The position numbers and the translations under genes are program-made. From positions 1 through 39,879 of the IMG/VR virus record IMGVR_UViG_3300017971_007923: a stretch of 39,879 bases of DNA. The stretch is one strand, 5' to 3'. A model generated the notes under the pieces. That model did no database searches. It was not told the DNA's origin and worked only from the letters and a program-made list of their open reading frames with translations. This stretch comes from a virus. Position 1 is the first letter of the stretch. Each line of letters begins with the position of its first letter. This document shows positions 2,356 to 18,600 of this stretch, in pieces.

Positions 2356-2369
2356 CGGAGGCATAAAAA

Positions 2370-2543: not shown

Positions 2544-2557
2544 AAGGAGGTGATTTC

Positions 2558-2768: not shown

Positions 2769-2815
2769 AAACCCAAAATCTAAAAGGTTCATATAAGAAC
2801 CAGGAAGGAAAGTCA

Positions 2816-3829
2816 ATGATAAAATCTGGCAAAATCACGGAGAGACCGAAACGGTTTCTTGTGTACGGTCCGGAAGGGATCGGGAAAAGCACCCTGGGTT
2901 CTATGTTCCCGGGGGCTGTGTTTTTCGACTGTGAGGAAGGCACGAACGAACTCAATGTCAAACGAGCTGAATTTTCCAAAACGTGGGAGGATGCCCTTAA
3001 TTTTACAAAATGGCTCAGAAGCGAAAACTTCAAAACCCTGGTAATCGACACCTTTGACAAACTGGAACAAATCGCGGTTCTCAATCTATGTGAAAAGTCC
3101 GGGAAAAAGGGAATTGAGGACTTTGGCTATGGAAAAGGCTACACTTGGCAAGCGGAAATGATCTCCGCTTTTTTGGCTGAACTTGACGCGCTCAGAAATG
3201 AAAAAGGCATGAACATTGTCATTATCTCTCATTCCCAAATCAAAAAGATTGAACTACCTGAAGAATCCGGAGCGTTTGATCATTACGAGTTGTCTCTCTC
3301 AAAAAAAGTAGCTCCCCTGGTTAAGGAGTGGGTTGATGCACAAATTTTCATCAATTACCACGTGGAAGTCTTCGAAAACTCTGATAGCAAAAAAAAGGCA
3401 CACGGAGGAAAAGACCATCTGCTTTACACGACGCACACAGCTTTTTCTGATGCAAAGAACCGCTTCGGATTGCCTCAAATCATTAACGCAGGTCAAACCA
3501 TAGACAGCATGAAAGTCACGTTTGAGGAACACTTTTTGCCCCTCCTGGGTTCCAAACCACAAATAAAGAAAACCCCTCAGAAACAAAAGAAAACCCGAAA
3601 GACCACAAAACAGAACCCTAAAGAAACCCCTGAAGTTAAAGCGGTTCGCAAGAAGCTCCAGGAAGAAAACATCCCGGAGGAAAACCTTCTGAAATTCTTC
3701 TATGAGAAGAAAGTCCTTCCGGAGGGGGAACCTCTAGAGAAAGCGGATCCGAAGGCACTCAAAAAAGTTGTTAAAAAATGGGTCGTGTTGAAGGGGAATT
3801 TTGAAAAAGGAGGCAATAACAATGAGTGA
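2816..3829 (+). CDS. Sak4-like RecA-fold recombination ATPase
   Basis: The protein (337 aa) has a RecA-like core: Walker A GPEGIGKST at residues 18-26 and Walker B LVID at 75-78 (TLVIDTFDKLE), then IVIISHSQIKKIE as a sensor-type strand near 140. This fits the AAA_24/Sak4 single-strand-annealing recombinases of phages. A Lys-rich linker (about 250-275) separates a C-terminal helical domain (about 280-330). AGGAAGGAA lies 6 nt before the ATG. The next gene encodes an SSB-like protein, the usual Sak4 partner, and the start of that gene overlaps the end of this one by 8 nt. Expected role: recombination-dependent repair and replication of phage DNA. Confidence 0.85.
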   Translation: MIKSGKITERPKRFLVYGPEGIGKSTLGSMFPGAVFFDCEEGTNELNVKRAEFSKTWEDALNFTKWLRSENFKTLVIDTFDKLEQIAVLNLCEKSGKKGIEDFGYGKGYTWQAEMISAFLAELDALRNEKGMNIVIISHSQIKKIELPEESGAFDHYELSLSKKVAPLVKEWVDAQIFINYHVEVFENSDSKKKAHGGKDHLLYTTHTAFSDAKNRFGLPQIINAGQTIDSMKVTFEEHFLPLLGSKPQIKKTPQKQKKTRKTTKQNPKETPEVKAVRKKLQEENIPEENLLKFFYEKKVLPEGEPLEKADPKALKKVVKKWVVLKGNFEKGGNNNE

Positions 3830-4289
3830 AGAAAAACGGTTGGGTTGGAACGATACGATTGAACATGACGGGGAAGAATTTATGCTTCTTCCAGACGGTT
3901 CGATAGTTGAATTTAAAGTTTTGCAGCTGGAAAAATCCTCTGTTTCACAGGGTGAAATGAAGGGGTGTCCGATGGCAAAACTCAAACTGCAATGTACATG
4001 TGATGAGGGTCAAACCGTAATCACATCGGCACTGGTTTTGCATACGAAGCTTGAATGGAAACTCTGTGAATTTTTCACGGCGATCGGGCAACGGAAACAC
4101 GGGGAACGGCTGAAGCCCCGATGGAATGAAGTTGTCGGTGCAACCGGTAAAGCGCGCCTGGCTGTGGGAAAATACACAGTAAATGATGGAAAAGAACAAA
4201 AAGTTAATCGCGTTAAAAAATATCTCAATCCTGAAGATGAGGAATCTCAGGTTGAAGATAAGGAGGAAGATGATGGTTTACCCTTCTAA
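3822..4289 (+). CDS. Single-stranded DNA-binding protein-like (acidic C-terminal tail)
   Basis: A 155-aa product. AAGGAGG at 3807-3813 selects ATG 3822 rather than an upstream in-frame TTG at 3801. The body has the beta-rich look of an OB-type fold, and the end is a strongly acidic stretch closing with DDGLPF, the same kind of tip that bacterial SSB proteins use to recruit partners. The gene sits directly after the Sak4-like ATPase, where phages commonly carry an SSB or DUF669-type protein. Role: coating ssDNA during recombination and replication and docking other proteins by the tail. The exact OB family is not identifiable by eye. Confidence 0.7.
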   Translation: MSEEKRLGWNDTIEHDGEEFMLLPDGSIVEFKVLQLEKSSVSQGEMKGCPMAKLKLQCTCDEGQTVITSALVLHTKLEWKLCEFFTAIGQRKHGERLKPRWNEVVGATGKARLAVGKYTVNDGKEQKVNRVKKYLNPEDEESQVEDKEEDDGLPF

Positions 4290-4947
4290 CGGAACAGCGT
4301 TTATCAAGATTGAGACCGTTCCTCTACCTGTAAAGGAGCGGGAATTTCTAAGACCTACCCCTTCAAGTGTAAAAACAGGCAACCTCAAAGATCAGAAAAA
4401 GATAGACGCCAAAATTCAAAATGCAATCCTGGACTGGAAACATGGAGAAGGATGCTATCAGGATTCATTACAGTCGAAGATTGCATTGATCGGTATTATT
4501 CTTTTCCAGGGTGAGGAATCGAAAGAGGAAATAACCATAAAACACAAAGAGGAAGATGAAATCCTGATCGACTTTTGGGAGGTCATGACAAAACATGAAC
4601 CCCTGAGAGTAGTCGGCGATAACATCCGGGCTGAAGCCTCTCAGATTATCCACAGGAGCCTGATACACGAGGTTCCTTTCCCTGTCATGTGGCGTAATGA
4701 TCTCTTCCAATACCTACCAAAACGATGGGTTGACATAACCTATTTTTGGAGCCTGGGAGATCGCAAGGCAAAATCCCGGAGCTTGAAACACCTTTGCAAA
4801 GCCTTCAATATTCCCCTGGATGAGACCCCTTTAACGGGACATGAATTCCGTGTATGGTGGAAGTCAAATAAAAAGCAGTGCGTTGAATACAATATGAAAC
4901 ATCTACGGGCAATGCTGGAACTCTATGAAAGGATTTCCATCTCATGA
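4273..4947 (+). CDS. PolB-type 3'-5' exonuclease fold, catalytic acids missing
   Basis: This 224-aa protein has the landmarks of the predicted PolB-related exonuclease family (DNA_pol_B_exo2): IETVPLP at 13-19, SVKTGNLKDQKKI at 32-44, an HRSLIHEVPFP segment at 127-137 and SLGDRKAKSRSLKHL at 160-174. The active site is lost. The motif I Asp (normally FDIET) is Lys12, the motif II FDLPF site reads EASQI (121-125), and the motif III NDV site reads KHL (209-211). Only Glu14 remains. It is likely a non-catalytic scaffold or DNA-binding subunit of the recombination module. AGGAGG at 4261-4266 favours ATG 4273 over 4270 or the longer frame. The next gene overlaps by ATGA. Confidence 0.72.
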   Translation: MVYPSNGTAFIKIETVPLPVKEREFLRPTPSSVKTGNLKDQKKIDAKIQNAILDWKHGEGCYQDSLQSKIALIGIILFQGEESKEEITIKHKEEDEILIDFWEVMTKHEPLRVVGDNIRAEASQIIHRSLIHEVPFPVMWRNDLFQYLPKRWVDITYFWSLGDRKAKSRSLKHLCKAFNIPLDETPLTGHEFRVWWKSNKKQCVEYNMKHLRAMLELYERISIS

Positions 4948-5270
4948 GTGGAAAACGGTCTCGAAATAAAGGTAAACGGGGGGAATTGGAACTCGCAAAA
5001 TTATTATCAGCAGTTTTCCCCGTGGAATGCAGGCGAGGGCAACAATACAACGGTCTTGAGGGTGATGATGTTGTGGGGTTGCCTGGAGCGCATATTGAGT
5101 GCAAAAGGACAGAGCGGCTTCAACTTGGAGCTGCTCTGTCTCAATCCATTAAAGACGCGGGGACGAAAGTCCCGGTTGTCATGCACAGGGGGAATCGTCA
5201 ACCGTGGCTTGTTACGCTTCGAGTTGAGGATCTCCCTGCTCTAATTCATTTTTTATCGGAGGTAATATAA
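4944..5270 (+). CDS. PDDEXK nuclease, Holliday-junction-resolvase-like
   Basis: A 108-aa nuclease with a compact PDDEXK core: basic N-terminus RSRNKGKRGELELAKLL with Glu14, then GDDVVGLPG (Asp41/Asp42) and HIECKR with the Glu52-x-Lys54 pair. Length and order match small archaeal/phage Hjc-type resolvases and related endonucleases. It should cut branched recombination intermediates before packaging. It overlaps the neighbours on both sides (ATGA and TAATG) in the recombination operon, and may supply the nuclease activity that the degenerate exonuclease-fold protein lacks. Specificity (junction, flap or general) cannot be told from sequence. Confidence 0.75.
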   Translation: MSGKRSRNKGKRGELELAKLLSAVFPVECRRGQQYNGLEGDDVVGLPGAHIECKRTERLQLGAALSQSIKDAGTKVPVVMHRGNRQPWLVTLRVEDLPALIHFLSEVI

Positions 5271-6916
5271 TGAACGCCAAACCGAATGAAATCGCAAAGG
5301 GGATAACGTCTTTCATATCCTTGAAAGCGATTATCCCTTCCCCGAATAACGGGAGAATTTTTCCGAAAAAACCGAGCAAATCTCTTAAAGAATTCGCCAA
5401 ACGGCTGAAATGTGAGGGGCTTTTACAGCGTCCAATTGTCCGGAAACACCCGAAAAAAGACGGTAAGTATGAATTGCTTGCGGGTGAACGCCGATTCAGA
5501 GCTTTTCAGATTAACAAAGAAGAACTTCTACCCGTTGTCGTGGTAGATGCAAATGACAAGCAGGCTTGCAAAATTACAATGGCTGAAAATATGGATCGTG
5601 AGGATTTAAACCCGATTGAAGAAGCTTTCAGCGTTTCCGCAATGTTGAAATACATGCCGGCTGAGGAGGTCGCTGCGGAGTTTGACAAGTCCGTTTCCTG
5701 GGTACGCCGCAGGACTAAGCTCCAGGGATTAATCAAAGCCTGGAAAAACATCATGCTTTCAGATGATGAGGAAAAAAGGGGAAATTTCCTTTCCTGGAAA
5801 CCCCGGTATTTCGAGTTGATCGCACAGTTCCCTGGAGAAGTGCAAAAACGAATCCTGAAAATTTTTCAAACTGAATATGGAGCAGCTCCTGATAATTGTT
5901 CTTATCAGGAGTTAAAACGATACCTGGGAGGATTTGTACGGCTCCTTGACGGGGCGGTCTTTGACACACGATGCTGTCAAACCTGCAAGCTACGCGCCGG
6001 TTATGAACCGGATATATTTGATGTCAACACTGAAAAATCTTCAAAGGGTGACAGGTGTCTTGACCGGCCTTGCTTTGAAGCCAAAACGAATGAGCGCCTC
6101 GAGGAAATCAAAAAGCAGTTGGAAAAGGAAGGGCAAAAACCGCAATTCATAAATGACGGGGGCTGGATAGAAAAAGGAATTTATTCTTCAGAACCGGTCA
6201 GGGCTTGGGAGTTTAAAAAAGGCAAAAAGAATGATCCTGATTCCTTCCCGGGAATCTATGTGAACGGCTCAAAAATTGGAAAAGTCTCCTGGTTCAAGGA
6301 CCCGAATAAAAAGGTAACATCAAAGGGGGAACGACCCCTTAATGAACGCCTCGAGGCACTTGAGAAACGCCGCTGTCGGTATGCGATTCATCTTTTTATG
6401 GAATTGCTGAATGAAAATAAAGAAGTTACATTTCCGGATATCTTTACAGCGGCTTATTGTGCTTCAGTCTTCGGAATTGAGGGAGCCTGGTTTGACAAAA
6501 ATGGTATAGAAAAGCCAAAACATGAAGCTCCTGAAGGTTTTTTCTGGAAAGAAGCGGCTAAAATTTCAGAAACGTTTAAAAAGTGGGGGATTAAAGGATC
6601 AAATAAAACATCCCTCCAGTCTTCTGAGCCTTTTTGCAGTTTAAGATTTTCTCTCAATGAGCAAATCAAGAGGATTTTTCTAAATGCACTTAAAAATATA
6701 AACACCTATTTTTCCTCCGAAGGCTGGGAAAAAGCAAAAGGAATTATGGGAGTTTACGAAGTCAATCCGGAGAAACTTTTCCAGGAAGCTTCTGAAAAAT
6801 TCAAGCCTTCAAAGGTGCTCCAAAAACAGTTGGAGGAACAAAAGACTCAAACCCCGAAAAAACCCGCCAAAAAAGCCACAGGAGCAAAGAAAAAGGACAT
6901 GAAGGTATGCAACTAA
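5270..6916 (+). CDS. Large ParB-like protein with Cys cluster
   Basis: The 548-aa protein starts with a ParB N-terminal domain: GERRFRA at residues 72-78 and ENMDREDLNPIEEA at 106-119, the two CTP-binding motif blocks of the family, then an HTH at about 130-155 (AEEVAAEFDKSVSWVRRR). Past the HTH is a Cys-rich segment, RCCQTCKL, then RCLDRPCFEAK near residue 260, a pattern seen in large phage and plasmid ParB proteins and possibly zinc-binding. The C-terminal 40 residues are Lys/Ala rich. No ParA is adjacent, so a role in replication or DNA organisation is more likely than partition. CGGAGGT at 5257-5263 precedes ATG 5270. Confidence 0.85.
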   Translation: MNAKPNEIAKGITSFISLKAIIPSPNNGRIFPKKPSKSLKEFAKRLKCEGLLQRPIVRKHPKKDGKYELLAGERRFRAFQINKEELLPVVVVDANDKQACKITMAENMDREDLNPIEEAFSVSAMLKYMPAEEVAAEFDKSVSWVRRRTKLQGLIKAWKNIMLSDDEEKRGNFLSWKPRYFELIAQFPGEVQKRILKIFQTEYGAAPDNCSYQELKRYLGGFVRLLDGAVFDTRCCQTCKLRAGYEPDIFDVNTEKSSKGDRCLDRPCFEAKTNERLEEIKKQLEKEGQKPQFINDGGWIEKGIYSSEPVRAWEFKKGKKNDPDSFPGIYVNGSKIGKVSWFKDPNKKVTSKGERPLNERLEALEKRRCRYAIHLFMELLNENKEVTFPDIFTAAYCASVFGIEGAWFDKNGIEKPKHEAPEGFFWKEAAKISETFKKWGIKGSNKTSLQSSEPFCSLRFSLNEQIKRIFLNALKNINTYFSSEGWEKAKGIMGVYEVNPEKLFQEASEKFKPSKVLQKQLEEQKTQTPKKPAKKATGAKKKDMKVCN

Positions 6917-8451
6917 GGGACTACCAGAAAAGGGCAATACAAGGCGTTTATGCGTCTTGGGACGAATATCGAAAAACGCTCCTGGTTCTACCTACCGGAA
7001 CCGGAAAAACGATTATCTTCTCAAACATTGCAAAACGTGAGATTGAAGAAGGAAATGAAGTTCTTATCCTGGCTCACAGAAACGAGTTAATAAAGCAGGC
7101 TCAAGATAAGTTGAAACAGGCTACAGGACTTGACTCTGCTATTGAAAAAGCCGGTGACAGTTGTTTGAACTCCTTTTTTCAAGTTACTTGTGGATCCGTT
7201 CAAACACTCATGAGACAATCACGGTTGAACAGGTTTCCAAAAGACTATTTTGAAACCATTATAGTGGATGAAGCTCATCACGTTCTTTCTCTCAGTTATC
7301 AAAACATCTTAAACCATTTCAATCAAGCGAAAGTGCTCGGTGTAACGGCTACTCCTGACCGCGGAGATAAAAAGAACTTAGGAGCGTTTTTCGATGATTT
7401 AGCATTTGAATACTCTGTCAGAGATGCAATTTCTGAAGGTTGGCTTTGTCCAATTGAAGCTGAAACAATCCCGCTGAATATAGATTTACAAGGGGTTAGA
7501 GTCACAGCGGGAGACTTCAATGACAGAGACTTAGGCAATGCCCTTGACCCTTACCTTTCCCAAATTGCTGAGAATATTCCCGAAAACAGAAAAACCCTGA
7601 TTTTCCTACCCCTGATTGTAACATCTGAAAGAATGACAAATCTATTACTCCAACGGGGACTTAAAGCAGAGCATATTGACGGCACTTCAAGGGAACGCGC
7701 TGAAACCCTGGCTCGGTTCAAGTCCGGAGAAACGAAAATTATCTGTAATTCCATGCTTCTCACTGAAGGCTTTGACGAACCTTCCATTGACTGTGTGGTC
7801 TGTTTGAGACCCACAAAAATCAGGTCTTTGTTTGCTCAAATTGTAGGACGCGGTACTCGCCCCCTTCCCGGAAAAAAACTTCTGATACTCGATTTCCTAT
7901 GGCATACAGCGCGCCATGACCTTTGTCACCCGGCGTCACTCCTGGCTGAAAATGAAGAGATCGCTAAAAAGATGACAGAGATACAGGAGCAAACCGGAGG
8001 CGCGCTTGATCTCACACAACTTGAAATCGAGGCAAAAGGCAAGGTTACAAAGGAACGTGAAGAAAAACTTGCCCGGGACCTGAAAGAACACAAGGCTAAA
8101 AAGCGGAGAACCGTTAATCCCCTGGAATTTGCGCTATCCCTCCATGATGAGGCTCTTCAAACCTATGAACCTACTTTTCCCTGGGAAAAACAGCCTCCCA
8201 CGGATAACCAGTTACGGCTTTTGACAAAGTTTGGCTTTGATCAAAACGAGATACCTACAAAGGGTTTTGCTTCAATGTTAATCACCCGTTGTATTTCACG
8301 TTCAAAACGTGATCTTGCAACCCCAAAACAGGTAAAGCTCCTGGAACGCTACGATTATGAAAACGCCGGGATGTTTACCTTCCAGGAAGCCAGTCAACTG
8401 ATTGACACCCTGGCTCAAAACGGCTGGAGAAGGGAGGCAGTGGTATGTTAA
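6907..8451 (+). CDS. DEAD/DEAH-box superfamily 2 helicase
   Basis: This 514-aa SF2 enzyme has Walker A PTGTGKT (29-35), DEAHH (121-125), TATPDR (147-152) and a motif VI-like QIVGRGTRP in the second RecA domain. This is the ResIII/UvsW-like type found in phage replication modules and should unwind or remodel DNA using ATP. The C-terminal part appears to contain two related short units, PPTDNQLRLLTKFGF and ATPKQVKLLERYDY, each followed by a helix ending in a Thr/Arg or Asp/Thr segment; I read this as a duplicated small domain. It overlaps the ParB-like gene by 10 nt and the primase gene by 7 nt, so all three are translationally linked. Confidence 0.9.
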   Translation: MQLRDYQKRAIQGVYASWDEYRKTLLVLPTGTGKTIIFSNIAKREIEEGNEVLILAHRNELIKQAQDKLKQATGLDSAIEKAGDSCLNSFFQVTCGSVQTLMRQSRLNRFPKDYFETIIVDEAHHVLSLSYQNILNHFNQAKVLGVTATPDRGDKKNLGAFFDDLAFEYSVRDAISEGWLCPIEAETIPLNIDLQGVRVTAGDFNDRDLGNALDPYLSQIAENIPENRKTLIFLPLIVTSERMTNLLLQRGLKAEHIDGTSRERAETLARFKSGETKIICNSMLLTEGFDEPSIDCVVCLRPTKIRSLFAQIVGRGTRPLPGKKLLILDFLWHTARHDLCHPASLLAENEEIAKKMTEIQEQTGGALDLTQLEIEAKGKVTKEREEKLARDLKEHKAKKRRTVNPLEFALSLHDEALQTYEPTFPWEKQPPTDNQLRLLTKFGFDQNEIPTKGFASMLITRCISRSKRDLATPKQVKLLERYDYENAGMFTFQEASQLIDTLAQNGWRREAVVC

Positions 8452-10469
8452 GCGATAAAGACGTTGCCCTTCAATGTCTTAAAAAACTTCCATTGTTCCG
8501 GTGTGACGATTACGGCTCCTGGTTAACTGTTGGTATGGCTCTGAAAAGCGCGGGGCTTCCTCTGGCAACCTGGAAAAACTGGAGCAAACAAAGCGTCAAA
8601 TATCAAAAAGGGGTATGCGCGCAAAAGTGGAAATCGTTCAAAAATGGTAACAGCGGTGTCTCGGTGGGAACCCTGGTTCAATGGGTAAAAGACGCAGGAG
8701 AAAATATAGATTACCGTCAAAAAAGAACCGGCTATGTTTTAACCTGGGATTCCGAAATCGGTCCCCGAAGCATACCGGAAGCACCGAAGGGGAACACCTG
8801 GCAAGCGGAACATCTGGTCAAATACCTTGAGTCACTCTTCAAAGATGATGAAACAGTGAATTTCGTGGTCAAATCTACACAAGCGAATGACCGAAATATC
8901 CCGTATGGGTACGGTGAAAACAAAAATCGAGACCTCTTGATTAATGAACTATGGGAAAACAAGCATGACATCACCTTTGCAATAGGTGACTACAAGGAAG
9001 CCGCGGGAGCCTGGATTAGAATAAACCCGATGGACGGTAACGGGTGCAAAAACTCAAACTGTACTGAATACCGTCATGTTTTAGTTGAGTCTGATGATTT
9101 ACTCCTGGAAAAACAATTATCAATAATCCGAAAATTAAACCTACCCACGGCGGCAATCGTGCATTCAGGAAGGAAGTCAATTCATGCAATTACAAAAATT
9201 CAAGCGGGTCACAATGCCAAACTTTTCAGAGAACGCGTTGAGTTCTTATTTGAGACCCTAGAAAAGTACGGATTCAAGGTTGACCGGCAATGCTCAAACC
9301 CGGCACGACTGTCCCGGATGCCTGGTATTACCCGCGCCGGCAAAAAACAATACCTCATAAGTGTTAATGAGGGCGCGGAATCATGGGAATCCTGGGAAAA
9401 TGAGATCAGATCAGAACTCTATGAATATGACCTTATAACCCCGGAAAAAATGACATCAATCAAGGTTTCTGACAAATCCGATGCGATTTTAGGCAATCGA
9501 TTTCTTTGTCATGCCGGCTCCTGGTTAATTGTGGCTCAATCCGGAATTGGAAAAAGCGTTCTCGCGATGCAGGGGTGTTGTCACTTTGCCACAGGAAGGG
9601 CTTTATTTGGACTGCAACCTATAAGACCCCTGAAACAAATACTTATTCAGGCTGAGAACAATCTCCTTGACCTGGTAGAACCGTTTCAGTCTTTGACGGA
9701 GGCAATGGAATTTTCTAAAGAGGAACGAAGGCTCCTGAATGCAAATTTCTCAATCATAAACGAGGATTCTCAAGCCGGTGAATTCTTCGCGCCTTTTTTG
9801 GACCATGTATGCAAGCGATATGCTCCGGATGTTATCTGGCTCGATCCGTTAATGGCGTATATCGGGGACGATATTTCGAAACAAGCGGTTTGCAGTGTAT
9901 TTCTAAGGAATCAAGTCAATCCGATATTACACAGGTATAATGTTGGATTGATAGTTCTGCATCATACAGCGAAGCCTCCCAAAAACCCCGAAAAACAGGC
10001 TCAGGGGCATGATCTTTCCTACTTAGGCATTGGATCATCTGAACTCACAAACTGGGCTCGTGCGGTTTCTACGGTACTTCAATCGCCGGATTCTAAAGAT
10101 ACTTATGTCTTTGAACATTCCAAGCGTGGCGATCGTGCTGGAACATCAAAACAGATATTCCTCAAACATGCAGTAAAGGGGATATATTGGGAGAAAACAG
10201 GAGCACCGGAAAAGACAATCAAAAGCAACAATCGAAACTCAAAATATGCAGATTTTGGCTTTGATTATATGCCGCCAAAAACACACACGAAAGACCCAGT
10301 ACAGAGTGAATTGTTTGCTCATATTATAGAGATTGTTTACAGTAAAACCGGGAAAAATATCACACCAAAACAAGCAGATTATATTAAATCTGCAATCACA
10401 AAACTAAAAAATCCTTTAATAATTTACGATAAAAAGACAAATACTTGGAGGGGGAGGTTTTTTCTATGA
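8445..10469 (+). CDS. PriCT-2 / primase-like / RepA-type ATPase fusion
   Basis: A 674-aa replication protein of three parts. Residues 10-90 resemble PriCT_2 (SWLTVGMALKSAG, then WKNWSKQS and KWKSFKN). About 190-320 resembles the catalytic part of plasmid/phage primases: YRHVLVESD, AAIVHSGRKSIHAI and NPARLSRMPG. From 345 to 580 is a RepA/RecA-like ATPase (AAA_25) with Walker A AQSGIGKS (364-371), Walker B VIWLDPLM, and VLHHTAKPP. The ATPase would be the replicative helicase and the N-terminal parts the primase. It ends ATGA-overlapping a doubtful ORF, and the 11-bp repeat block starts 11 nt later, which suggests that its binding site is next to its gene. Confidence 0.85.
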   Translation: MLSDKDVALQCLKKLPLFRCDDYGSWLTVGMALKSAGLPLATWKNWSKQSVKYQKGVCAQKWKSFKNGNSGVSVGTLVQWVKDAGENIDYRQKRTGYVLTWDSEIGPRSIPEAPKGNTWQAEHLVKYLESLFKDDETVNFVVKSTQANDRNIPYGYGENKNRDLLINELWENKHDITFAIGDYKEAAGAWIRINPMDGNGCKNSNCTEYRHVLVESDDLLLEKQLSIIRKLNLPTAAIVHSGRKSIHAITKIQAGHNAKLFRERVEFLFETLEKYGFKVDRQCSNPARLSRMPGITRAGKKQYLISVNEGAESWESWENEIRSELYEYDLITPEKMTSIKVSDKSDAILGNRFLCHAGSWLIVAQSGIGKSVLAMQGCCHFATGRALFGLQPIRPLKQILIQAENNLLDLVEPFQSLTEAMEFSKEERRLLNANFSIINEDSQAGEFFAPFLDHVCKRYAPDVIWLDPLMAYIGDDISKQAVCSVFLRNQVNPILHRYNVGLIVLHHTAKPPKNPEKQAQGHDLSYLGIGSSELTNWARAVSTVLQSPDSKDTYVFEHSKRGDRAGTSKQIFLKHAVKGIYWEKTGAPEKTIKSNNRNSKYADFGFDYMPPKTHTKDPVQSELFAHIIEIVYSKTGKNITPKQADYIKSAITKLKNPLIIYDKKTNTWRGRFFL

Positions 10470-10903
10470 GAAAGCAAAAGTTCAACCTTCCTTCAACCTT
10501 CCTTCAACCTTCCCTAAGGGAAGGAGAAAGAAGGTTTTTTAATCTTCCTTCGGTTATTATAAAATCTGTCATATATGCAGGGTATTACTTTTTGCTATAT
10601 TTGATCTTCCTTCAACCTTCCTTCAACCTTCCTTCAACCTTCCTTCAGGGGTTTCTATCTTCCTTCAGGAAAGATTTTTTAGAAAAAAGCATAAAAAAGT
10701 TCAACCTTCCTTCAACCTTCCTTCAGGGGTTTCAACCTTCCCTAAGGGAACTTCGAATCTTCCTTCAGATGAGCTTCTTCCCTAAAGGGAAGGTTGATCT
10801 TCCCTATATATTATCCCCCCCTAAAGGGGGGAATAATATGGGTTCCCCCCCTTTTTTACAAGGGGGGAACCATTTATATTCCCCCCGCCTGAAGGAAGGT
10901 TGA
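10466..10903 (+). CDS. Doubtful ORF across the repeat block
   Basis: An ATG overlapping the primase stop, preceded by GGAGGGGGAGG, opens 145 codons. The translation is only the repeat read as protein (FNLPSTFLQ units; 11 bp repeated three times equals 33 nt or 11 codons) plus the C-run/G-run hairpins. The unit length, the spread of variants and the inverted copies point to DNA-level function. The strong ribosome binding site and coupled start are the only arguments for translation. Confidence 0.15.
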   Translation: MRKQKFNLPSTFLQPSLREGERRFFNLPSVIIKSVIYAGYYFLLYLIFLQPSFNLPSTFLQGFLSSFRKDFLEKSIKKFNLPSTFLQGFQPSLRELRIFLQMSFFPKGKVDLPYILSPPKGGNNMGSPPFLQGGNHLYSPRLKEG

Positions 10904-10912
10904 AGGAAGATC
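10481..10912. repeat. 11-bp iteron-like repeats and hairpins, candidate replication origin
   Basis: TTCAACCTTCC occurs nine times on this strand: 10481, 10492 and 10503; 10611, 10622 and 10633; 10700, 10711 and 10731. An exact inverted copy is at 10894-10904 and a 10/11 inverted copy at about 10788-10798. Shorter CTTCCTTC variants are scattered between. The block also holds a perfect dyad CCTTCCCTAAGGGAAGG (10508-10524), a related one near 10779-10793, and two C-run/G-run hairpins at about 10815-10832 and 10841-10872. AT-rich spacers lie between clusters. Repeats of about one helical turn beside a RepA-like ATPase gene are the classic origin layout (inference). Confidence 0.7.
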
Positions 10913-10939
10913 AAAATTCAAGAAAGGAGAAGAAAAAAG

Positions 10940-11125
10940 ATGCCATGCAAATCTACCCATAAACGAAACGCCTGGGAAAGAGAACTTCAAGGTCCCGTGA
11001 GGGTAACCCCTGATGATATCACCTGGCTGAAGAAAAACCTTCAAGAAGGACAAGTATCTGGTATGATCAAAAAGACCCGGTTTCTTCCAGGGATCCCTGA
11101 AACAAAAATTCTGGAACTGGTGTGA
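10940..11125 (+). CDS. Small hypothetical early protein
   Basis: A 61-aa basic protein not recognised, starting 10 nt after AAAGGAG at 10923-10929. The middle reads VTPDDITWLKKNLQEG, which looks like one amphipathic helix after a TPDD cap, and the C-terminus has FLPGIPETKILELV. It is the first gene after the repeat block and begins the run of small early genes. Confidence 0.6.
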   Translation: MPCKSTHKRNAWERELQGPVRVTPDDITWLKKNLQEGQVSGMIKKTRFLPGIPETKILELV

Positions 11126-11142
11126 ATAGGAGGTAAAGTTTT

Positions 11143-11166
11143 ATGATAAAGGAGCGCAAGTCATGA
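11143..11166 (+). other. Possible 7-codon leader ORF
   Basis: AGGAGGT at 11130-11136 is followed 6 nt later by ATG 11143, then seven codons (MIKERKS) whose TGA overlaps the next gene's ATG at 11163. The AAGGAG inside the mini-ORF also serves as ribosome binding site for that gene. A strong site leading into a 7-codon frame suggests coupled translation. Confidence 0.35.
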
Positions 11167-11647: not shown

Positions 11648-11906
11648 GAAAGAGAGCTGGAGAAGTATTAGAAAAAGTCAAATACCACAACGCGGGCAAA
11701 GGTGCATTGTTTGGCATACGAGATACAAATATCCTATATTCGCAACCTTTCACCCTGAGGAAGGAAGAGACCCTGATTCTTCCTTTTGGGAATCAGAAAG
11801 TGGAAAAAGAAAGAGATTGATGATGATTCGATTCTGGATGCCGGAACCGGAAGTACCCCTTGAATATAAAACAAGAACGATGATTCCAAAAAGGAGGAAA
11901 AAGTGA
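11613..11906 (+). CDS. DUF551-like small protein
   Basis: A 97-aa product with SWRSIRKSQIPQRGQRCIVW near the start and an IRFWMPEPEVP closing motif. The W...P..G..V.V..., then W/FWMP.P.P layout is the one seen in the phage family DUF551, although the middle (HTRYKYPIFATFHPEEG) is longer than usual. The function of that family is unknown. AAGGAGG at 11600-11606 sets ATG 11613, giving a 35-nt overlap with the gene before; the end overlaps the next start by GTGA. Confidence 0.6.
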   Translation: MCPIIPLPPPLKKESWRSIRKSQIPQRGQRCIVWHTRYKYPIFATFHPEEGRDPDSSFWESESGKRKRLMMIRFWMPEPEVPLEYKTRTMIPKRRKK

Positions 11907-12175
11907 TCTATGTAGATAACCTTAGAACCATAAGAGAAACAATAACTCCTTGCTGTATGCTGTTCGCTGATGACCCCGGAGAACTGATACAGTTCGCGTC
12001 AAAAGTGGGACTCGATCCAAGATTGATCGAACTCTCGAAAATTCCCCACTTCAAAGTTGACGGTAAAGTCCGAGCTCACTTGATCCGGCTGGGGGTTCAA
12101 CCATTGAGCAACAAAGAAATGTTGAGAAAAATAAATGAAATAGCAAGCAATAAGAAACAGCTAATAACAGGTTAG
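11903..12175 (+). CDS. DUF4031-family protein
   Basis: A 90-aa product starting at GTG 11903 after AAGGAGG (11891-11897). It opens IYVDNLR and continues CCMLFADDPGELIQFASKVG, LDPRLIELSKIPHFKVDGKV and RAHLIRLGVQPLS. This matches the DUF4031 layout: a VDD strand at the start, an H/C-M-x-AD strand, a helix, then the W/IPHYD-like segment and a final ARxxAVxxGAxxV helix. The family is small and of unknown biochemistry, often found in phages. It is the last clear early gene before a terminator-like hairpin. Confidence 0.7.
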   Translation: MIYVDNLRTIRETITPCCMLFADDPGELIQFASKVGLDPRLIELSKIPHFKVDGKVRAHLIRLGVQPLSNKEMLRKINEIASNKKQLITG

Positions 12176-12198
12176 GTTCTTTCGACGGTTATGAGGTA

Positions 12199-12227
12199 GG
12201 CAGGCTGTCAGCCATTGCCCTGTTTTT
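12199..12227 (+). terminator. Terminator-like hairpin after the early genes
   Basis: GGCA (12199-12202) pairs with TGCC (12216-12219) and GGC (12203-12205) with GCC (12211-12213), leaving a 2-nt bulge and a 5-nt loop. Five T follow at 12223-12227. It falls 24 nt after the DUF4031 stop and before the packaging genes, where an early/late boundary is expected. The bulge makes it weaker than the terminator at 2318. Confidence 0.5.
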
Positions 12228-12260
12228 ATGCAAATACAACTTTTTTCGGCGGTTTAGTGT

Positions 12261-12410
12261 ATGAAAAAATTACCTACGAAACTTTCAGGTTTGAAGGAAG
12301 CTGGAGAGGCTTTTGGTCGGCTGAAGAATTCACTTAAAATTTTTGGCGACTTGGGGGGGATTGTTTATAACAAAAGAACCAGAGCCAAACGATCTTTTGA
12401 AAAGGATTAA
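12261..12410 (+). CDS. Possible 49-aa basic protein before the terminase
   Basis: An ATG at 12261 opens 49 codons in the gap between the DUF4031 gene and the small terminase. The product is basic with a leucine/glycine-rich helix-like middle (KLSGLKEAGEAFGRLKNSL, then IFGDLGGIV) and an RTRAKR tail. There is no convincing Shine-Dalgarno, so this is a weak call. The rest of this gap (12176-12437) holds the hairpin at 12199 and otherwise nothing I recognise; a cos or pac site next to the terminase genes could lie here. Confidence 0.3.
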   Translation: MKKLPTKLSGLKEAGEAFGRLKNSLKIFGDLGGIVYNKRTRAKRSFEKD

Positions 12411-12437
12411 ATCTGAAAAAATATTGAGATTTCCTTA

Positions 12438-13013
12438 ATGAAAAAACCAGACCCCAAAATAAAACTACTGATTGAGAAACTCCTGATTCAGTCAATTAAA
12501 GGGAACCCACAAGGGCGATGGCTTGACGATCTCGTCCGGGCTGTAGGGTATATAAACCCGAAGGCGGTAAGAGGGGGGGAGCTGGCGGACTTGTATGGTA
12601 TATCACCAATGGGGGTTTCTCAATGGCACAAGCGCGATGGGTTACGGCGAAACCGGCGAGACAAAACATATAATCTGGAGGCTGTGATCAAATGGCGCGA
12701 GAAGCGACTTGGCACTCAATCTGAATCTTCCGAGAGTGATCTTGATAAAGCCGAACGACTTCTCAAGTGGGAAAAAGTAAAACTTGCAATCCTGGAAAGA
12801 GAGCTCCGGGAAGGACGGCTGTGTGAGCTGGAGCCGGTCAGGATATGGCTCGAACGAATTGCCTCCAGGCTCCGACAGGTGGGAGATACACTTCAACGCA
12901 AGTTTGGGGATGAAGCTCAACAAGTATTGAACGAAGCGATTGAGGATATAAGCAATGACGTTGAAAGTCAAATTACCGTCAACAAAGAAGGTTCTCCGGT
13001 GGTTTCTGGCTAA
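12438..13013 (+). CDS. Terminase small subunit (Nu1-like)
   Basis: This 191-aa protein should recognise the packaging site and load DNA onto the large terminase. An N-terminal winged-HTH-like region includes GGELADLYGISPMGVSQW (about residues 46-63), then KTYNLEAVIKWREKR, which is the Nu1/DNA-packaging HTH layout. A central coiled-coil-like helix (LDKAERLLKWEKVKLAILER at 101-120) and LRQVGDTLQRKFGDE follow; this is the assembly or large-subunit contact. The gene is directly ahead of the GpA-like terminase, with a 59-nt overlap, as in lambda-type packaging modules. The start ATG has only a weak upstream GAGAT site. Confidence 0.85.
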   Translation: MKKPDPKIKLLIEKLLIQSIKGNPQGRWLDDLVRAVGYINPKAVRGGELADLYGISPMGVSQWHKRDGLRRNRRDKTYNLEAVIKWREKRLGTQSESSESDLDKAERLLKWEKVKLAILERELREGRLCELEPVRIWLERIASRLRQVGDTLQRKFGDEAQQVLNEAIEDISNDVESQITVNKEGSPVVSG

Positions 13014-14973
13014 GTGTAAGTCAAAGCCTCCGCTTACCATGACAGAATTTAGCGAACGTGATATAGTAGTTGCAAAGGGACCTTTCAAAAACCAACGGTT
13101 CCGGCTAAGCCGTCAACCGTTTTTGCGTCATTGGTTCACAGCGATTGACTCTCAAAAATTCCCCCGGCACCTTCTGACTGGATGCACACAGTCAGGAAAG
13201 AGCCTTGCCGGGTGGATAATTCCTGCCACTTATCATCTTTTTCAGATGAATGAGGGGTTAATTCTGGGTACACCCACGGCGTTGATTGCAATGGAAAAGT
13301 GGAAGAAAGATTTAGAACCCATAATCAAGCGGTCAAAGTATAGAAATTTAATGCCATTAACAGGAGCGGGGAGCCGGGGCGGGGAGTTCACGTCAATTGA
13401 TTTCCGGAACGGAACGTCAATAAAAATCATGACAGGGGGGGGCGCAGGAAAGTTGGGAGATAAATCCCGCGCTCATTATGAAACCCGTGTTGCCGCAATC
13501 ACGGAAATTGACGGGTTTGATGAAGGTAGTGATCTTTCCATTGAAACCGATCCTGTTTCACAGATTGAAGCGCGAACTTTGGCACACGGGATTATGCAAA
13601 AGCGGATTTATCTTGAATGTACTTTATCCACAAAGAAGGGAAGAACATATCGCGAGTTAAAAGCGGGTACTGATAGTTATATTGTGTGTCAGTGTCCGTA
13701 TTGTAAATCTTGGGTGACACCTGAAAGGGAACATCTCAAAGGCTGGCAGGATGCGGAAACTGAAAAGGAAGCTTATCTCAAATCTTATTTTATTTGTCCG
13801 GCTTGTGCTTACCCATTGACTCAGAATGACCGGGAAAACATGAACCTAAAATGTGACATAAAACATAGGAATGACCCGGAAAAGGTTTTGACTTTTTCAA
13901 TGCGGTGGAATGCGTTCAACAATAGGATGTGGGTTCCTGGGGATATCGGGGTTGAAGAGTGGAAAAAAGAACAGTGTGAAGATGAACGAGTAAAAGATGA
14001 TATGGAGCGCAAGCTCTGTCAGTTTTATTGGTCTATACCGTATGAATCTCCGGAGGTAAATCTCACAATACTTGATTACAAAATTACAAATAAACGCCGA
14101 GGGCAAACATTAAAGGGGGAAATTCCTCAATGGTGTGATTGGATTACCGGTGGGGTGGACTTACATAAACGGTTAGGCTATTATATCCTTTTGGCTTCCC
14201 GCGCTGATGATAAGGGCGTGATTTGCAATTATGGCAAGTTTGAGATTGCAGCGGATGACTTGGGTACAGATACAGCCACACGGATTGCACTCAAAGATTT
14301 CCAGGAATTTCTTGAAACGGGGTTTCCTGTTGTGGATTCAAAAGAACGAAAGATGCCGCTTCAAGTTTGGTTCGATTCAGGCTTTGCCGATTCCCGCCAG
14401 GCTCTATATGATTTTTGCCATGAGTTTGGTACTCGATACCGTCCAATAAAGGGGTATGGTGGGATAAAAGGGAGGAACTATTTATCACCTCAAAAGATTG
14501 ACAAAAATACAATATTTGTTGGGTTGCAATATTATTTCAAATATCTGCGTTCTGATGGTATTGCGCTCGTGGAAATTGATTCTGACTACTGGAAGACTCG
14601 GTCTCATGAAGCGTTGACTATTCCGGTACTGGTTGACGGTGAGGAGCAAGCCGGGGCGATTCAACTTTATTCCTCTCCGGATAAAAATGAACATATTACC
14701 ATTACAAAACATTTTTCCGCTGAGCGGAAAACTAAGGTTGAAGTCCCTGGTAAAGGAGAAATGATAAAGTGGATTCAGGAAAGCCGGAACAATCATTTTT
14801 TCGATTGTTTATATATCTCTCTTTGTGCGAGTAATTTTTGTAAGATCATGATACAGAATAAGCAAGCCGGAGGGAGAGAGCCGGTGAGAGAACCAGAGCC
14901 TCAAGATGAGTATGATTTTGTAAAGAGTTTTCGAGATAATATTCAAAATATGGGGAGGTTTTACAATGGTTAA
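12955..14973 (+). CDS. Terminase large subunit (GpA family)
   Basis: The packaging motor and nuclease, 672 aa. Walker A is TGCTQSGKS (75-83) and the Walker B region AITEID (181-186). A zinc-binding insert has Cys245/247/250 and Cys281/284, as in lambda gpA relatives. The nuclease half begins near GGVDLHKRLGYYILLA and contains acidic FDSGFADSR. The longest start overlaps the small subunit by 59 nt; its N-terminus (KCKSKPPLTMTEF) matches the usual GpA beginning and GAGG lies upstream, so I keep it over ATG 13039. The type implies cos-like or lambda-like packaging of linear DNA. Confidence 0.92.
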   Translation: MTLKVKLPSTKKVLRWFLAKCKSKPPLTMTEFSERDIVVAKGPFKNQRFRLSRQPFLRHWFTAIDSQKFPRHLLTGCTQSGKSLAGWIIPATYHLFQMNEGLILGTPTALIAMEKWKKDLEPIIKRSKYRNLMPLTGAGSRGGEFTSIDFRNGTSIKIMTGGGAGKLGDKSRAHYETRVAAITEIDGFDEGSDLSIETDPVSQIEARTLAHGIMQKRIYLECTLSTKKGRTYRELKAGTDSYIVCQCPYCKSWVTPEREHLKGWQDAETEKEAYLKSYFICPACAYPLTQNDRENMNLKCDIKHRNDPEKVLTFSMRWNAFNNRMWVPGDIGVEEWKKEQCEDERVKDDMERKLCQFYWSIPYESPEVNLTILDYKITNKRRGQTLKGEIPQWCDWITGGVDLHKRLGYYILLASRADDKGVICNYGKFEIAADDLGTDTATRIALKDFQEFLETGFPVVDSKERKMPLQVWFDSGFADSRQALYDFCHEFGTRYRPIKGYGGIKGRNYLSPQKIDKNTIFVGLQYYFKYLRSDGIALVEIDSDYWKTRSHEALTIPVLVDGEEQAGAIQLYSSPDKNEHITITKHFSAERKTKVEVPGKGEMIKWIQESRNNHFFDCLYISLCASNFCKIMIQNKQAGGREPVREPEPQDEYDFVKSFRDNIQNMGRFYNG

Positions 14974-15220
14974 AAAGCAAGTGTCAAAAGTGACTCAAGT
15001 ATCAAAAGTGACTGTTGAAGTTCCGTTCCGGAAAGTGAAAAAAGGTGAGTATTGCGTCAGAAATGTTAACATCTCGCGGTTGTCTCTGGAGAAGGCTCAA
15101 GTACTCCGAGGAATGCTTAATGGTTTGCTGAAACAACGTAAACGGTTAGAATCCGGTGAATTAATTGATCGCCCTAATAGAGTTTTTCTGTATATACTTG
15201 AGTCATGTAAAATCAAATGA
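14966..15220 (+). CDS. Small hypothetical protein after the terminase
   Basis: An 84-aa basic product not recognised. The N-terminus repeats VSKVT (QVSKVTQVSKVT), followed by a strand-turn-strand (VPFRKVKKGEYCVRNVNI) and a helix SLEKAQVLRGMLNGLLKQRK. It starts after GGGGAGG (14952-14958) and overlaps the terminase by 8 nt. Its position between terminase and portal is where lambda carries gpW, but the sequence does not look like gpW. A structured intergenic region follows. Confidence 0.6.
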   Translation: MVKKQVSKVTQVSKVTVEVPFRKVKKGEYCVRNVNISRLSLEKAQVLRGMLNGLLKQRKRLESGELIDRPNRVFLYILESCKIK

Positions 15221-15309
15221 GTCAATGCTATTGTTATATGAGGCTCATAATCTTTTTTTGTTAGTTTGCATTTTTTATTTGACTTCTAAAAGGTGGAACA
15301 TCGATTTAT

Positions 15310-15315
15310 TATAAT
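15310..15315 (+). promoter_or_regulatory. Candidate promoter -10 (TATAAT)
   Basis: A perfect TATAAT at 15310-15315 in the 193-nt gap before the 15414 gene. No good -35 is 16-18 nt upstream; a TTGACT at 15279-15284 is 25 nt away, which is too far for a standard sigma-70 promoter. If it works, the transcript would start near 15322 and run at once into the large hairpin at 15338. Confidence 0.35.
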
Positions 15316-15337
15316 TGTTCTTTGTTATGCCTCCACT

Positions 15338-15400
15338 GAGCCTTCCAGTCGGGCTTAGGAGTGACTGGCTCCTATTTCTTCTGGAAGGCTCAAATTTTTT
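15338..15400 (+). terminator. Structured leader with intrinsic terminator and alternative stem
   Basis: GAGCCTTCCAG (15338-15348) pairs perfectly with CTGGAAGGCTC (15381-15391), then six T (15395-15400). Inside, TAGGAG (15356-15361) pairs with CTCCTA (15369-15374). A competing stem, CCAGTC (15345-15350) with GACTGG (15363-15368), uses part of the outer stem, so the two folds exclude each other. This terminator/antiterminator look precedes the 15414 gene by 13 nt and would cut the head genes off from the terminase genes unless read through. Confidence 0.7.
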
Positions 15401-15413
15401 AGAGGTGTTTTTA

Positions 15414-15707
15414 ATGGCTTCTGATCTCGAAACAGCGAAAGCGGCTTACTTAGCGAATGCTGATTATGCCACAGAACAAAACGAAACGAAATGTAAGGCG
15501 TTTGTCAATGCGTGTCGAAAACTTCTCCTTTTAATTCCTACTACATATTCTCGTGATAACGAAGCCGGAGGGGAGTCTTATGGTTTTAATCCTGATGTCA
15601 TTCGATCTGAATTAGAAAAAGCAGAGGCTTTTCTTGCGTCATTAAAAGATGTGGACTCGGGAGGCGCCGGAGTAGTGTTCATTTCAATGGAGGATTATCG
15701 AGATTAA
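15414..15707 (+). CDS. Hypothetical head-module protein (gpW position)
   Basis: A 97-aa product that starts at ATG 15414, 7 nt after AGAGGT, not at the in-frame ATG 15315, which would be translated through the terminator hairpin. It is helical: LETAKAAYLANADYATEQN, then KCKAFVNACRKLLLLIP and SELEKAEAFLASLKD. No family is recognised with certainty. The position directly before the portal (TAATG overlap) is that of gpW-like connector or small head proteins in lambda-type phages, so a structural role is likely. Confidence 0.6.
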   Translation: MASDLETAKAAYLANADYATEQNETKCKAFVNACRKLLLLIPTTYSRDNEAGGESYGFNPDVIRSELEKAEAFLASLKDVDSGGAGVVFISMEDYRD

Positions 15708-17293
15708 TGTCTGGTGAGTGGTATTTAAGCGAAAAAGGGCTGATTGAACAGTTCAATGATTTGAAGTCTGAATACCAGGTTGCAAACAATTCGCGGTTTC
15801 GCCGGAATCGGGGTGTATCCTCAACTGGAAAAACTGCTGACTATATGTTTATCGATGAGTCTAAGTTTTTTCGTGGCATGGAATATGTCCGTGACATGGA
15901 TGTCAATGATAGTTTGATTAGTCAAATCGTTAAGCGCGCTGTTGACAATACTATTAGAGACGGTTTTCCCCTACGTCCACAAACGGGTGACCCTGAAGTT
16001 GACCAATATTTAAAAAACAAATGGATTGAACATACCACTGATCCGGAAAGGGTTGATGCCTCCGGGGAATTGGATTTTCTTGAGATGCTCAAACTCTCCT
16101 TCCGTCAAATGCTGATTGATGGTGATATAATTGCCATTCCCACTACTGAGGGATCATTGCAGTTGATAGAAGCGCACAGAGTAAAAACCCCGTCAAACAC
16201 GAAAAGAAACGTTGTCCTGGGCGTTCTGTTGGATGAACGCCGAAGACGACTTGAGTACTGGGTAACGAAAGATGAGATTTCGCCGTCTTATCAAATACAA
16301 CGGGTAGGTGATGTTGAAGCTTTCAAGGTTCGTGACGATCGAGGTTTAAGACAGGTATTTCATTTATACAACCCCAAACGTGTAAGTCAAACGCGGGGAC
16401 TTTCGGCGTTCGCTTGTGTGGCTGATATTGCTGGTATGTTCGAGGATATTAATTTCGCTAAACTCGTACAGCAACAAGCGGCGTCATGCTTTGCAATCCT
16501 ACATGAACAGGGCGATATCTCACGTAAATTGACCGGGCTTCCGGGTACTGAATCGGATCTTCGTTCAACGCAAACTATGAAAAATGGAGGGACGCGGGTG
16601 CTAAAAAGCGTGGCTCCTGGTATGGAAATTTTTGGGCGCCCTGGGGAGAAAATTTCTGGTTTTTCACCGAACATTCCGAACCCGGAATATTTTTCACACG
16701 TAAAACTCTTAATAACATTGATCGGTAATGCGATCGGGATGCCGCTCATCCTGGTTTTGCTTGATGCTTCGCAAACAAATTTCTCAGGCTACCGGGGTGT
16801 AGTAGATCAGGCACGGATCGGATTTAAATCGAATCAAGGTTCTATAACAGGGAAAATTTGTCGCCCCTATTACAAATGGCTTCTGAATTTTTGGCTTGAG
16901 CAAGATTCCCCCGGATTTGATCCGAAGATCGCCGCGTATTATTTGAAGCTTCAAGATAAGCTGTTTAATCACACCTGGGGGCGTCCTCAATATCCATACA
17001 TTCAACCGCTTCAGGATGCGAAAGCGGATCAAGCGCGGCTTGATGGTGGTATGATCTCTCCCTCCCAGCTTCAACAAGAGCGATACGGAAGGGAATGGGA
17101 AGAGTTCATCAAGATAAGGACGCAGGATCGGCTTCAGGAAATACAAAAGGCGATGCAGGCAGTTCAGGATTTAAAAAAAGAATTCCCCGATATTAATGTA
17201 GATTGGCGCGAGATTATAACCGGGAAATATCAGGCTAAAGGAGGCTCAGATGTCAAACAACCTGTTGAATCTACCGAAACAGCTAAAGAATAG
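15707..17293 (+). CDS. Portal protein (lambda family)
   Basis: The 528-aa product forms the dodecameric portal through which DNA enters the head and to which the tail binds. The region QVFHLYNPKRVSQTRGLSAF (about residues 215-235) and the following helix-rich segment (VADIAGMFEDINFAKLVQQQ) match the lambda gpB/Phage_portal_2 family. IQPLQDAKADQARLDGG at about 435-451 is a typical late portal motif (xPxKEaxAxxxxixxG). It starts on the stop of the gene before (TAATG) and its last 44 nt overlap the protease gene. Length is standard. Confidence 0.9.
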   Translation: MSGEWYLSEKGLIEQFNDLKSEYQVANNSRFRRNRGVSSTGKTADYMFIDESKFFRGMEYVRDMDVNDSLISQIVKRAVDNTIRDGFPLRPQTGDPEVDQYLKNKWIEHTTDPERVDASGELDFLEMLKLSFRQMLIDGDIIAIPTTEGSLQLIEAHRVKTPSNTKRNVVLGVLLDERRRRLEYWVTKDEISPSYQIQRVGDVEAFKVRDDRGLRQVFHLYNPKRVSQTRGLSAFACVADIAGMFEDINFAKLVQQQAASCFAILHEQGDISRKLTGLPGTESDLRSTQTMKNGGTRVLKSVAPGMEIFGRPGEKISGFSPNIPNPEYFSHVKLLITLIGNAIGMPLILVLLDASQTNFSGYRGVVDQARIGFKSNQGSITGKICRPYYKWLLNFWLEQDSPGFDPKIAAYYLKLQDKLFNHTWGRPQYPYIQPLQDAKADQARLDGGMISPSQLQQERYGREWEEFIKIRTQDRLQEIQKAMQAVQDLKKEFPDINVDWREIITGKYQAKGGSDVKQPVESTETAKE

Positions 17294-18596
17294 TTTTCCG
17301 CGGATTATGGATTATTTCGGGTTGTGGGCTATTCTTCCAGATGTGATTAAATCCATGTATTCAAGCGTGAAGGATATGGATTTAATTTCTCATATAAATA
17401 GCGTGCCTAAAGCCGCTTATAATGATGACAGATATTTTAATACTTTTCCCGCGGAAGGGCAAAAAGGAAAGCGGGTCGCAGTTGTCCAGGTACAAGGGCT
17501 TCTTATGAAAGCTGAAACTTCCCTGGGTGATTCCACTTCTACGGTTCGCCTCCGGAGCGTGATTCGTTCCCTGGTGAAAAACCCTGATGTCATTTCAATT
17601 ATTTTGAATATTGATTCCCCTGGTGGAACCGTTTCTGGAATACAAGACCTGGCTGATGAGATACAGAAAGCAGCGGAGCAAAAAACCGTTTTAGCGTTCA
17701 TTGAGGACACCGGTGCTTCAGCGGCTTACTGGATTGCTTCTCAGGCTCATAAAATCTATACGAATTCAACGGCTTTGGTTGGTTCTATAGGTGTTTTCTC
17801 TGCTGTGTATGATTACTCAATGCAAGCTGCACAAATGGGGATCAAAGTTCATTTGATTACAACCGGGGACTTCAAGGGTGCGGGAACTGTTGGAACTGAA
17901 ATTTCTCCGGAACAGCTGGAGGAACTCCAAAAGGTTGTCAATTCATTCTATGATTTTTTTCTTTTCGGAGTCGCTAAGGGGCGCGGATTATCTTTGAGAG
18001 AGATTCGTCCCCTGGCTGATGGGCGCGTATGGATTGGAAAAGAAGCTCAAAAAGTCGGGCTCACTGATGGAGTAAAGACCTTCAAGGAAGTTTTGAAGGC
18101 GGCAAGTAGAAGCAAAATATCAGCTCAAATTGATATGAAAACTGATGGAAAGGAGGAAGTAATTATGAATCAGAAAGAAAAAGAGGCTCCCGTAACAGCT
18201 ACCATTGAAGAACTGGAAAGAGCGTGTCCTGGAGCGTCGTCTGATTTCGTTCTCGCTCAGGTGAAAGCGGGATCTACTGTTGTGGAGGCACAATCCGCCT
18301 TTATCGCGGCACAGCAAAAGCAGATTGAAGCGCAGGAAAAAGCGCAGGCAGAAGCGCAAAAACAAAAGCGAAGCCTTGGTTTTGACCCCGTTAGCTGTTT
18401 ACCAGGAAAGCCTGTGGGGAGAAAAACCCTGGATGAGGCTGACCCGATTTTAGCGTTCAAACATCTCCAGGGTGAATTCAAAAAACAGGGGATGTCCACA
18501 AGCGAAGCGAATCGGGCAATTGCACTCGATTACCCTGACGTTCATAAATCGTTCGTGGTCGCATTAAATCAAAAAATTCATGAAGGAAAGGAGTAA
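17250..18596 (+). CDS. S49-family head maturation protease with C-terminal scaffold region
   Basis: A 448-aa relative of lambda gpC/SppA. Ser157 (DTGASAAYW) and Lys209 (GDFKGAGT) form the expected Ser-Lys dyad; SPGGTVSG at 123-130 is the family's oxyanion-region motif. It should process capsid proteins inside the prohead. Residues after about 300 are a different, Ala/Gln-rich scaffold-like part that can be made alone from an internal start (18165). AAAGGAGG at 17237-17244 selects ATG 17250, overlapping the portal gene by 44 nt. The order portal, S49 protease, DUF2190 protein and capsid is that of lambda. Confidence 0.9.
   Translation: MSNNLLNLPKQLKNSFPRIMDYFGLWAILPDVIKSMYSSVKDMDLISHINSVPKAAYNDDRYFNTFPAEGQKGKRVAVVQVQGLLMKAETSLGDSTSTVRLRSVIRSLVKNPDVISIILNIDSPGGTVSGIQDLADEIQKAAEQKTVLAFIEDTGASAAYWIASQAHKIYTNSTALVGSIGVFSAVYDYSMQAAQMGIKVHLITTGDFKGAGTVGTEISPEQLEELQKVVNSFYDFFLFGVAKGRGLSLREIRPLADGRVWIGKEAQKVGLTDGVKTFKEVLKAASRSKISAQIDMKTDGKEEVIMNQKEKEAPVTATIEELERACPGASSDFVLAQVKAGSTVVEAQSAFIAAQQKQIEAQEKAQAEAQKQKRSLGFDPVSCLPGKPVGRKTLDEADPILAFKHLQGEFKKQGMSTSEANRAIALDYPDVHKSFVVALNQKIHEGKE
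18165..18596 (+). CDS. Nested scaffold protein (Nu3-like), in frame within the protease gene
   Basis: AAAGGAGG at 18149-18156 stands 8 nt before an in-frame ATG (codon 306 of the protease gene). The 143-aa product includes a long helix rich in Gln/Ala (AAQQKQIEAQEKAQAEAQ at about 46-63) and a basic/charged end, typical of internal scaffolds. Lambda makes Nu3 from inside gene C in just this way. The ribosome binding site is as strong as that of the main genes, and a site this good inside a coding frame is unlikely by chance. Confidence 0.7.
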   Translation: MNQKEKEAPVTATIEELERACPGASSDFVLAQVKAGSTVVEAQSAFIAAQQKQIEAQEKAQAEAQKQKRSLGFDPVSCLPGKPVGRKTLDEADPILAFKHLQGEFKKQGMSTSEANRAIALDYPDVHKSFVVALNQKIHEGKE

Positions 18597-18600
18597 ACCT

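Follow-up and report, generated by a model that had tools for sequence, protein, structure and literature searches.

The window analysed here is the whole 39,879-nt stretch of viral DNA. A block of short repeats and hairpins, approximately 450 bases long, was found at 10481-10915, directly behind a plus-strand gene (8445-10469). It begins 12 bp past the stop codon of this gene (10469) and ends approximately 25 bp short of the next start codon (10940). A preliminary description of the sequence had placed it directly behind a RepA-like primase/ATPase gene, and this location was borne out.

The primase-helicase gene and its module

The gene at 8445-10469 encodes a protein of 674 aa, the candidate initiator by its domain and fold matches. 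A PriCT_2 domain (residues 10-80, Pfam 9.5e-20) is followed by an archaeo-eukaryotic primase (AEP) core (residues about 130-310) and a RepA-like helicase (residues 354-511, Pfam AAA_25, 1.4e-11). The protein matches the PHROG 2597 primase at 3.2e-105, whilst its family profile matches RSF1010 RepA (1g8y, 1.3e-11). Its predicted structure gives fold matches to the AEP of cyanophage S-2L PrimPol and to RepA. The motif II histidine lies in a pattern, G242 x K244 S245 x H247, that is invariant in 34 sequences. Because PriCT stands ahead of the primase core, the RepA helicase behind it and the motif II histidine is present, the protein is classified from its sequence as an InversePrim-type primase-helicase (PriCT-2, AEP, RSF1010-RepA-like helicase). 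PriCT before the primase core, a RepA-family helicase, the motif II histidine and a prophage setting are the published features of InversePrim (PMC5862659).

The C-terminal end of the protein (approximately residues 615-674) forms two helices and a beta hairpin (H-H-strand-strand) in two models, with pLDDT of about 50 to 88. We read it, with moderate to low confidence, as winged-helix-like; it has no match in Pfam and cannot be aligned with the helix-turn-helix (HTH) of relatives.

Upstream of the primase lie genes for Sak4-like, DUF669-like, RusA, ParB-like and DEAD-box helicase proteins, which make up a temperate-phage replication module. Apart from the ParB and RusA proteins of the window, this module is common to the relatives (DEAD helicase in 51/54, Sak4 in 47/54, DUF669-like in 48/54). 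The ParB-family protein (5270-6916, plus strand, 548 aa) carries ParB_N, and its best match, the PRTRC ParB model, falls below the cut-off of that model. At the right end of the window, on the opposite strand, a DUF3440/PAPS-reductase protein sits next to a small ParB-like protein (37008-38854, minus strand), an arrangement which we take to resemble an IbrA/IbrB-like pair. Tandem units of 81 and 105 bp were seen at 20297-20665 (plus strand), within a protein (20021-21082) that has long TGNVTGNLTGD-type repeats. An IMG/VR contig from another sample (L018) is 100% identical to the window over 11,157 bases (its positions 1-11157, window 11814-22970); it ends at window 11814, approximately 900 bases from the repeat block, so that the block lies outside it.

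Anatomy of the repeat block

The repeat unit is the 11-mer TTCAACCTTCC. Nine exact plus-strand copies begin at 10481, 10492, 10503, 10611, 10622, 10633, 10700, 10711 and 10731, that is 12-272 bp behind the primase-helicase gene, in clusters of 3, 3, 2 and 1. On the minus strand there is one exact copy (10894-10904) and one near copy with a single mismatch (10788-10798). Exact counts thus bear out the nine direct iterons with exact and near inverted copies that had been proposed. No exact copy occurs outside the block in the whole 39.9-kb window. When the block was dinucleotide-shuffled 500 times, the commonest 11-mer reached at most 5 copies, against the 9 observed, and in 403 of the shuffles no 11-mer occurred more than once.

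As in iteron origins, the units within clusters A, B and C follow each other at 11-bp steps and so keep helical phase, and A+T-rich DNA adjoins them. Cluster A (10481-10513, plus strand) consists of three contiguous units and ends in a small dyad, CTTCCCTAAGGGAAGG (10509-10523), recognised from the sequence and its folding. An A+T-rich stretch (10530-10600, up to 72% AT per 60 bp) separates it from cluster B (10600-10643, plus strand), in which a degenerate unit at 10600 precedes three exact ones in 11-bp phase. Two exact units form cluster C (10700-10721, plus strand), and the single plus-strand iteron at 10731-10741 leads into a dyad, TTCCCTAAGGGAA. The near-exact inverted iteron (10788-10798, minus strand) overlaps a further dyad, CTTCCCTAAAGGGAAGG (10777-10793). 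Behind it comes a TA-rich core, CTATATATTAT (10804-10814), where TA content is maximal (near +306 of the scanned region); it is short, with 4 TA steps, and stands ahead of the G/C hairpins.

These two hairpins lie approximately 340-400 bp past the primase stop. Hairpin 1 (10808-10839) pairs an A/T-then-C arm with a G-then-A/T arm over 13 pairs, and hairpin 2 (10841-10871) pairs GGTTCCCCCC with GGGGGGAACC over 10 pairs. They correspond to the two C-run/G-run hairpins noted earlier, and no 80-nt windows in the 39.9 kb are more stable than the two that contain them. The block closes with an inverted end copy (10890-10915, minus strand), which repeats 10600-10625 perfectly, in inverted orientation, over 26 bp and holds the exact inverted iteron. 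Because of the inverted end copies, it is possible for the block to fold into a large stem on one strand.

No DnaA-like box (TTATNCACA, up to 1 mismatch) was found in 10440-10960, although DnaA boxes are not required by all iteron origins. Rfam gave sub-threshold chance matches only for the block, and GC skew gave no clear origin signal in the window, following the coding strand instead.

A reading frame of 145 codons also runs open through the whole block (10466-10903, plus strand), and if it were a gene the repeats would be its coding repeats. Its start is coupled to the primase stop by an ATGA overlap, with a strong ribosome-binding-like GGAGG upstream, and the 143-codon open run of the block is reached by just 0.1% of shuffles (0.2% with the iterons held fixed). 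However, since the 11-bp unit does not divide into whole codons, its copies pass through all three reading frames; the product has no Pfam or family match, and there is little sign of a conserved frame in relatives (7/53 below 0.05, window included). Given the stop-poor unit, the openness may be due to chance, and we regard a protein-coding stretch as highly improbable.

Arrays at the same position in relatives

Relatives were drawn from phage records and from 80 virus contigs with homologous primases, which, together with the window, gave 55 clusters at 80% identity. Repeated 10-mers in excess of shuffles were measured in 300-bp windows from -3.6 to about +3.2 kb around the primase stop. Excess repeat coverage was 0.27-0.29 at the stop and about 0 elsewhere over 6.6 kb, and in 50 of the 55 clusters the most repetitive 300-bp window lay at -100/0 of the stop. 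The comparison with related phages that had been suggested as a check therefore finds that nearly every cluster has an array at this position, which amounts to dozens of distantly related phages. A closer inspection of these arrays revealed direct and inverted copies mixed, as in the window. The preliminary description had called this build unusual, but direct and inverted copies together with hairpins are the usual build of this phage family.

The repeat sequences themselves vary from phage to phage. None of the viral contigs contains a relative with the identical 11-mer, and the window has no DNA-level similarity to phages. A scan of 84,980 genomes located the 22-mer tandem of TTCAACCTTCC at two unrelated sites, in neither case with an array, and it occurs in no other virus contig. 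These searches bear on whether the repeats are dispersed palindromes of host type, REP- or MITE-like, that built up in an intergenic gap. C-run/G-run palindromes of such a look are common in environmental genomes. However, the exact 11-mer and its tandem are as restricted as described, and the repeats of relatives are confined to one position, the primase stop. An origin as dispersed repeats is extremely unlikely.

The order of elements is conserved as well as their position. Iterons precede the TA core in 47/53 loci and the hairpin in 49/53, and the TA core precedes the hairpin in 40/53; in this family iterons usually come first, then a TA-rich core and then a GC-rich hairpin. In 13/53 loci the TA core contains ACTACGTA, 0-200 bp past the stop; ten other 200-bp bins lack it in every locus. 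Helical phasing is also suggested in relatives, where repeat spacing peaks at 34-38 and 43-48 bp, although distances inside one array are not independent. Three relatives whose cores are amongst the closest (L108, L109, L131) show hardly any excess of repeats, or none, immediately past the gene.

The dip in folding energy of relatives also falls at the primase stop, with hairpins 0-250 bp behind it. Several hairpins located 0-350 bases behind the stop share an apex of the form GTCGTGCG-TTAAGC-nn-CGCACGAC or GGGC-TTAAGC-nn-TGCCC (L031, L040, L041, L051, L055, L084, L024 and others). A TAAGC-like loop was counted in 35/51 loci as against 16/204 control windows, with a pattern that was picked after viewing the hairpins. 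This apex is possibly a recognition element for the primase, and we treat it as a lead only.

Hairpins at this place could instead be RNA structures of a transcription terminator or leader between the primase and the next genes, with the repeats incidental. An alternative plus-strand stem at 10826-10850, followed by CTTTTTT, has a terminator-like score, and there are 5 terminator-like sites where 1.6 are expected. By contrast, with the window and its relatives taken together, at least 5 T among the 9 bases that follow are seen for only 1/53 of the hairpins past the primase, and neither the phased repeats nor their co-variation with a DNA-binding domain (below) is explained by a terminator. We consider this reading very unlikely on its own, whilst a terminator may overlap the putative origin, by analogy with pRN1 (PMC4234260).

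Which protein reads the repeats

The primase-helicases of relatives end in an HTH, for which the Pfam matches are weak and below curated cut-offs. Similarity of the repeats follows similarity of this C-terminal HTH once the catalytic core is controlled for (partial Mantel r = 0.29-0.33, p = 0.0005, k = 5-7), in a test confined to the aligned HTH and to DNA past the stop, since the last 70 residues can overlap iterons within the gene end. With the HTH held constant, the correlation with the core was about 0.01-0.03, and control regions (flanking, coding) gave -0.04 to 0.11 in the same test. The window was left out of the test because its C-terminal end is unalignable. Binding of the repeats by the HTH would be the simplest reading of this co-variation. 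The main caveat is that adjacent stretches of DNA may have been transferred together, which could account for part of the correlation.

Four relatives (L106, L107, L111, L115) come closest to the window in their helicase part. They are without the C-terminal domain, and in each a separate HTH-like ORF, named by reading its sequence and not by a family match, overlaps the primase stop. In L106 (region 4787-5300), GGATGA repeats follow at exact 11-bp steps in and behind this ORF.

The ParB-like protein had also been put forward as a reader of the 11-mer. The array would then be a parS-like centromere, its 11-mers loading the protein at 5270-6916 for partition of a plasmid-like prophage. A ParB_N protein is indeed encoded within the same module, and some plasmid centromeres are typically arrays of short direct repeats. 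However, a homolog of this protein was detected in 0/54 relatives within the available stretch, whereas the array stands at the same place in nearly all of them, and the repeats track the HTH of the primase. Retention of the array in phages with no detected ParB speaks against a centromere; we consider it very improbable as the function of the array, and ParB to be an unlikely reader of the 11-mer. In the window phage the array could conceivably serve as both origin and centromere.

A probable replication origin behind the primase gene and its known counterparts

Taken together, the conserved position, the conserved order of elements and the co-variation of repeats with the C-terminal domain in relatives support the iteron origin beside the RepA-like gene proposed in the preliminary description. 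The block is very probably an iteron-type phage replication origin, used by the protein encoded just upstream. From the observed anatomy and this conservation we infer that binding, melting, priming and the start of replication would all take place at the block. Copies of the 8445 protein would bind the 11-mers through their winged-helix-like C-terminal end. Phased binding on clusters A-C and on the inverted end copies would then strain or open the A+T-rich DNA at 10530-10600 and 10804-10814, where the RepA-like hexameric helicase domain would load and unwind. Once single-stranded, the G/C hairpins (10808-10871) would be priming sites for the AEP primase domain, in the manner of the RSF1010 ssi hairpins and RepB', before a polymerase takes over.

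A broader proposal, to which we give an even chance, is that InversePrim phages in general initiate replication by a one-protein counterpart of the RSF1010 system. An origin in three parts (iterons, TA-rich core and a hairpin with a recurrent TAAGC-like loop) would lie directly behind the gene, an exchangeable C-terminal HTH would set which iterons are read, and initiator and origin would evolve as paired, mutually exclusive specificities. A literature search returned no description of an origin behind InversePrim genes; the kind of origin is itself known, and it is the family-wide regularity of its layout for which no description was found in the literature searched. Origins are rarely known for phages known only as sequence, and here one would be predictable from the position of a single gene, with the co-variation test proposing which domain reads it. 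Predictions of origin, initiator and incompatibility could thus be put to the test in the hundreds of InversePrim phages that databases contain. The InversePrim primase-helicase, so far classified by sequence only, would gain a concrete substrate in its own downstream iterons and hairpin.

Like the proposed origin of the window, the ori of PhiSfi21 is a noncoding origin element in the replication module of a temperate phage; the two are likened by type. We take it to be located behind the primase gene. It is given as a 302-bp noncoding element of the replication module where it is cited in PMC6356513. The window shares with the InversePrim family PriCT before the primase core, a RepA-family helicase and a prophage setting, and the passages on this family in PMC5862659 describe neither an origin nor a C-terminal HTH for it. 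The alpha protein of P4 combines winged helix, helicase and primase in a single protein and binds origin repeats (PMC4234260). It resembles the proposed initiator of the window in this one-protein build, but its primase is of the bacterial type (Toprim), unlike the AEP of the window.

In RSF1010 the iterons are bound by RepC, unwinding falls to RepA, and RepB' does the priming, at hairpins (summarised in PMC4234260). The oriV of RSF1010, like the window, has iterons and hairpins, served by a RepA-type hexameric helicase and an AEP primase, which in RSF1010 primes at the hairpins. The hairpins are likened by type, not by sequence, and their priming role in the window is predicted. Moreover, the iteron binder, helicase and primase of RSF1010 are three separate proteins, whereas the window has one fused polypeptide, so that the comparison is a claim about how the system would work only. 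In pRN1, orf904 encodes an AEP primase-helicase that carries a winged helix at its C-terminus; the origin follows this gene directly and has a stem-loop as its key element (PMC4234260). The authors of that work propose a pRN1-like origin placement for several phages. A stem-loop right behind the rep gene is likewise found in the window. However, pRN1 lacks iterons and its helicase is of the SF3 type, in contrast to the iterons and RecA/RepA-type helicase found here. By analogy, the window would appear to unite features of pRN1 and RSF1010 in one protein and one downstream region.
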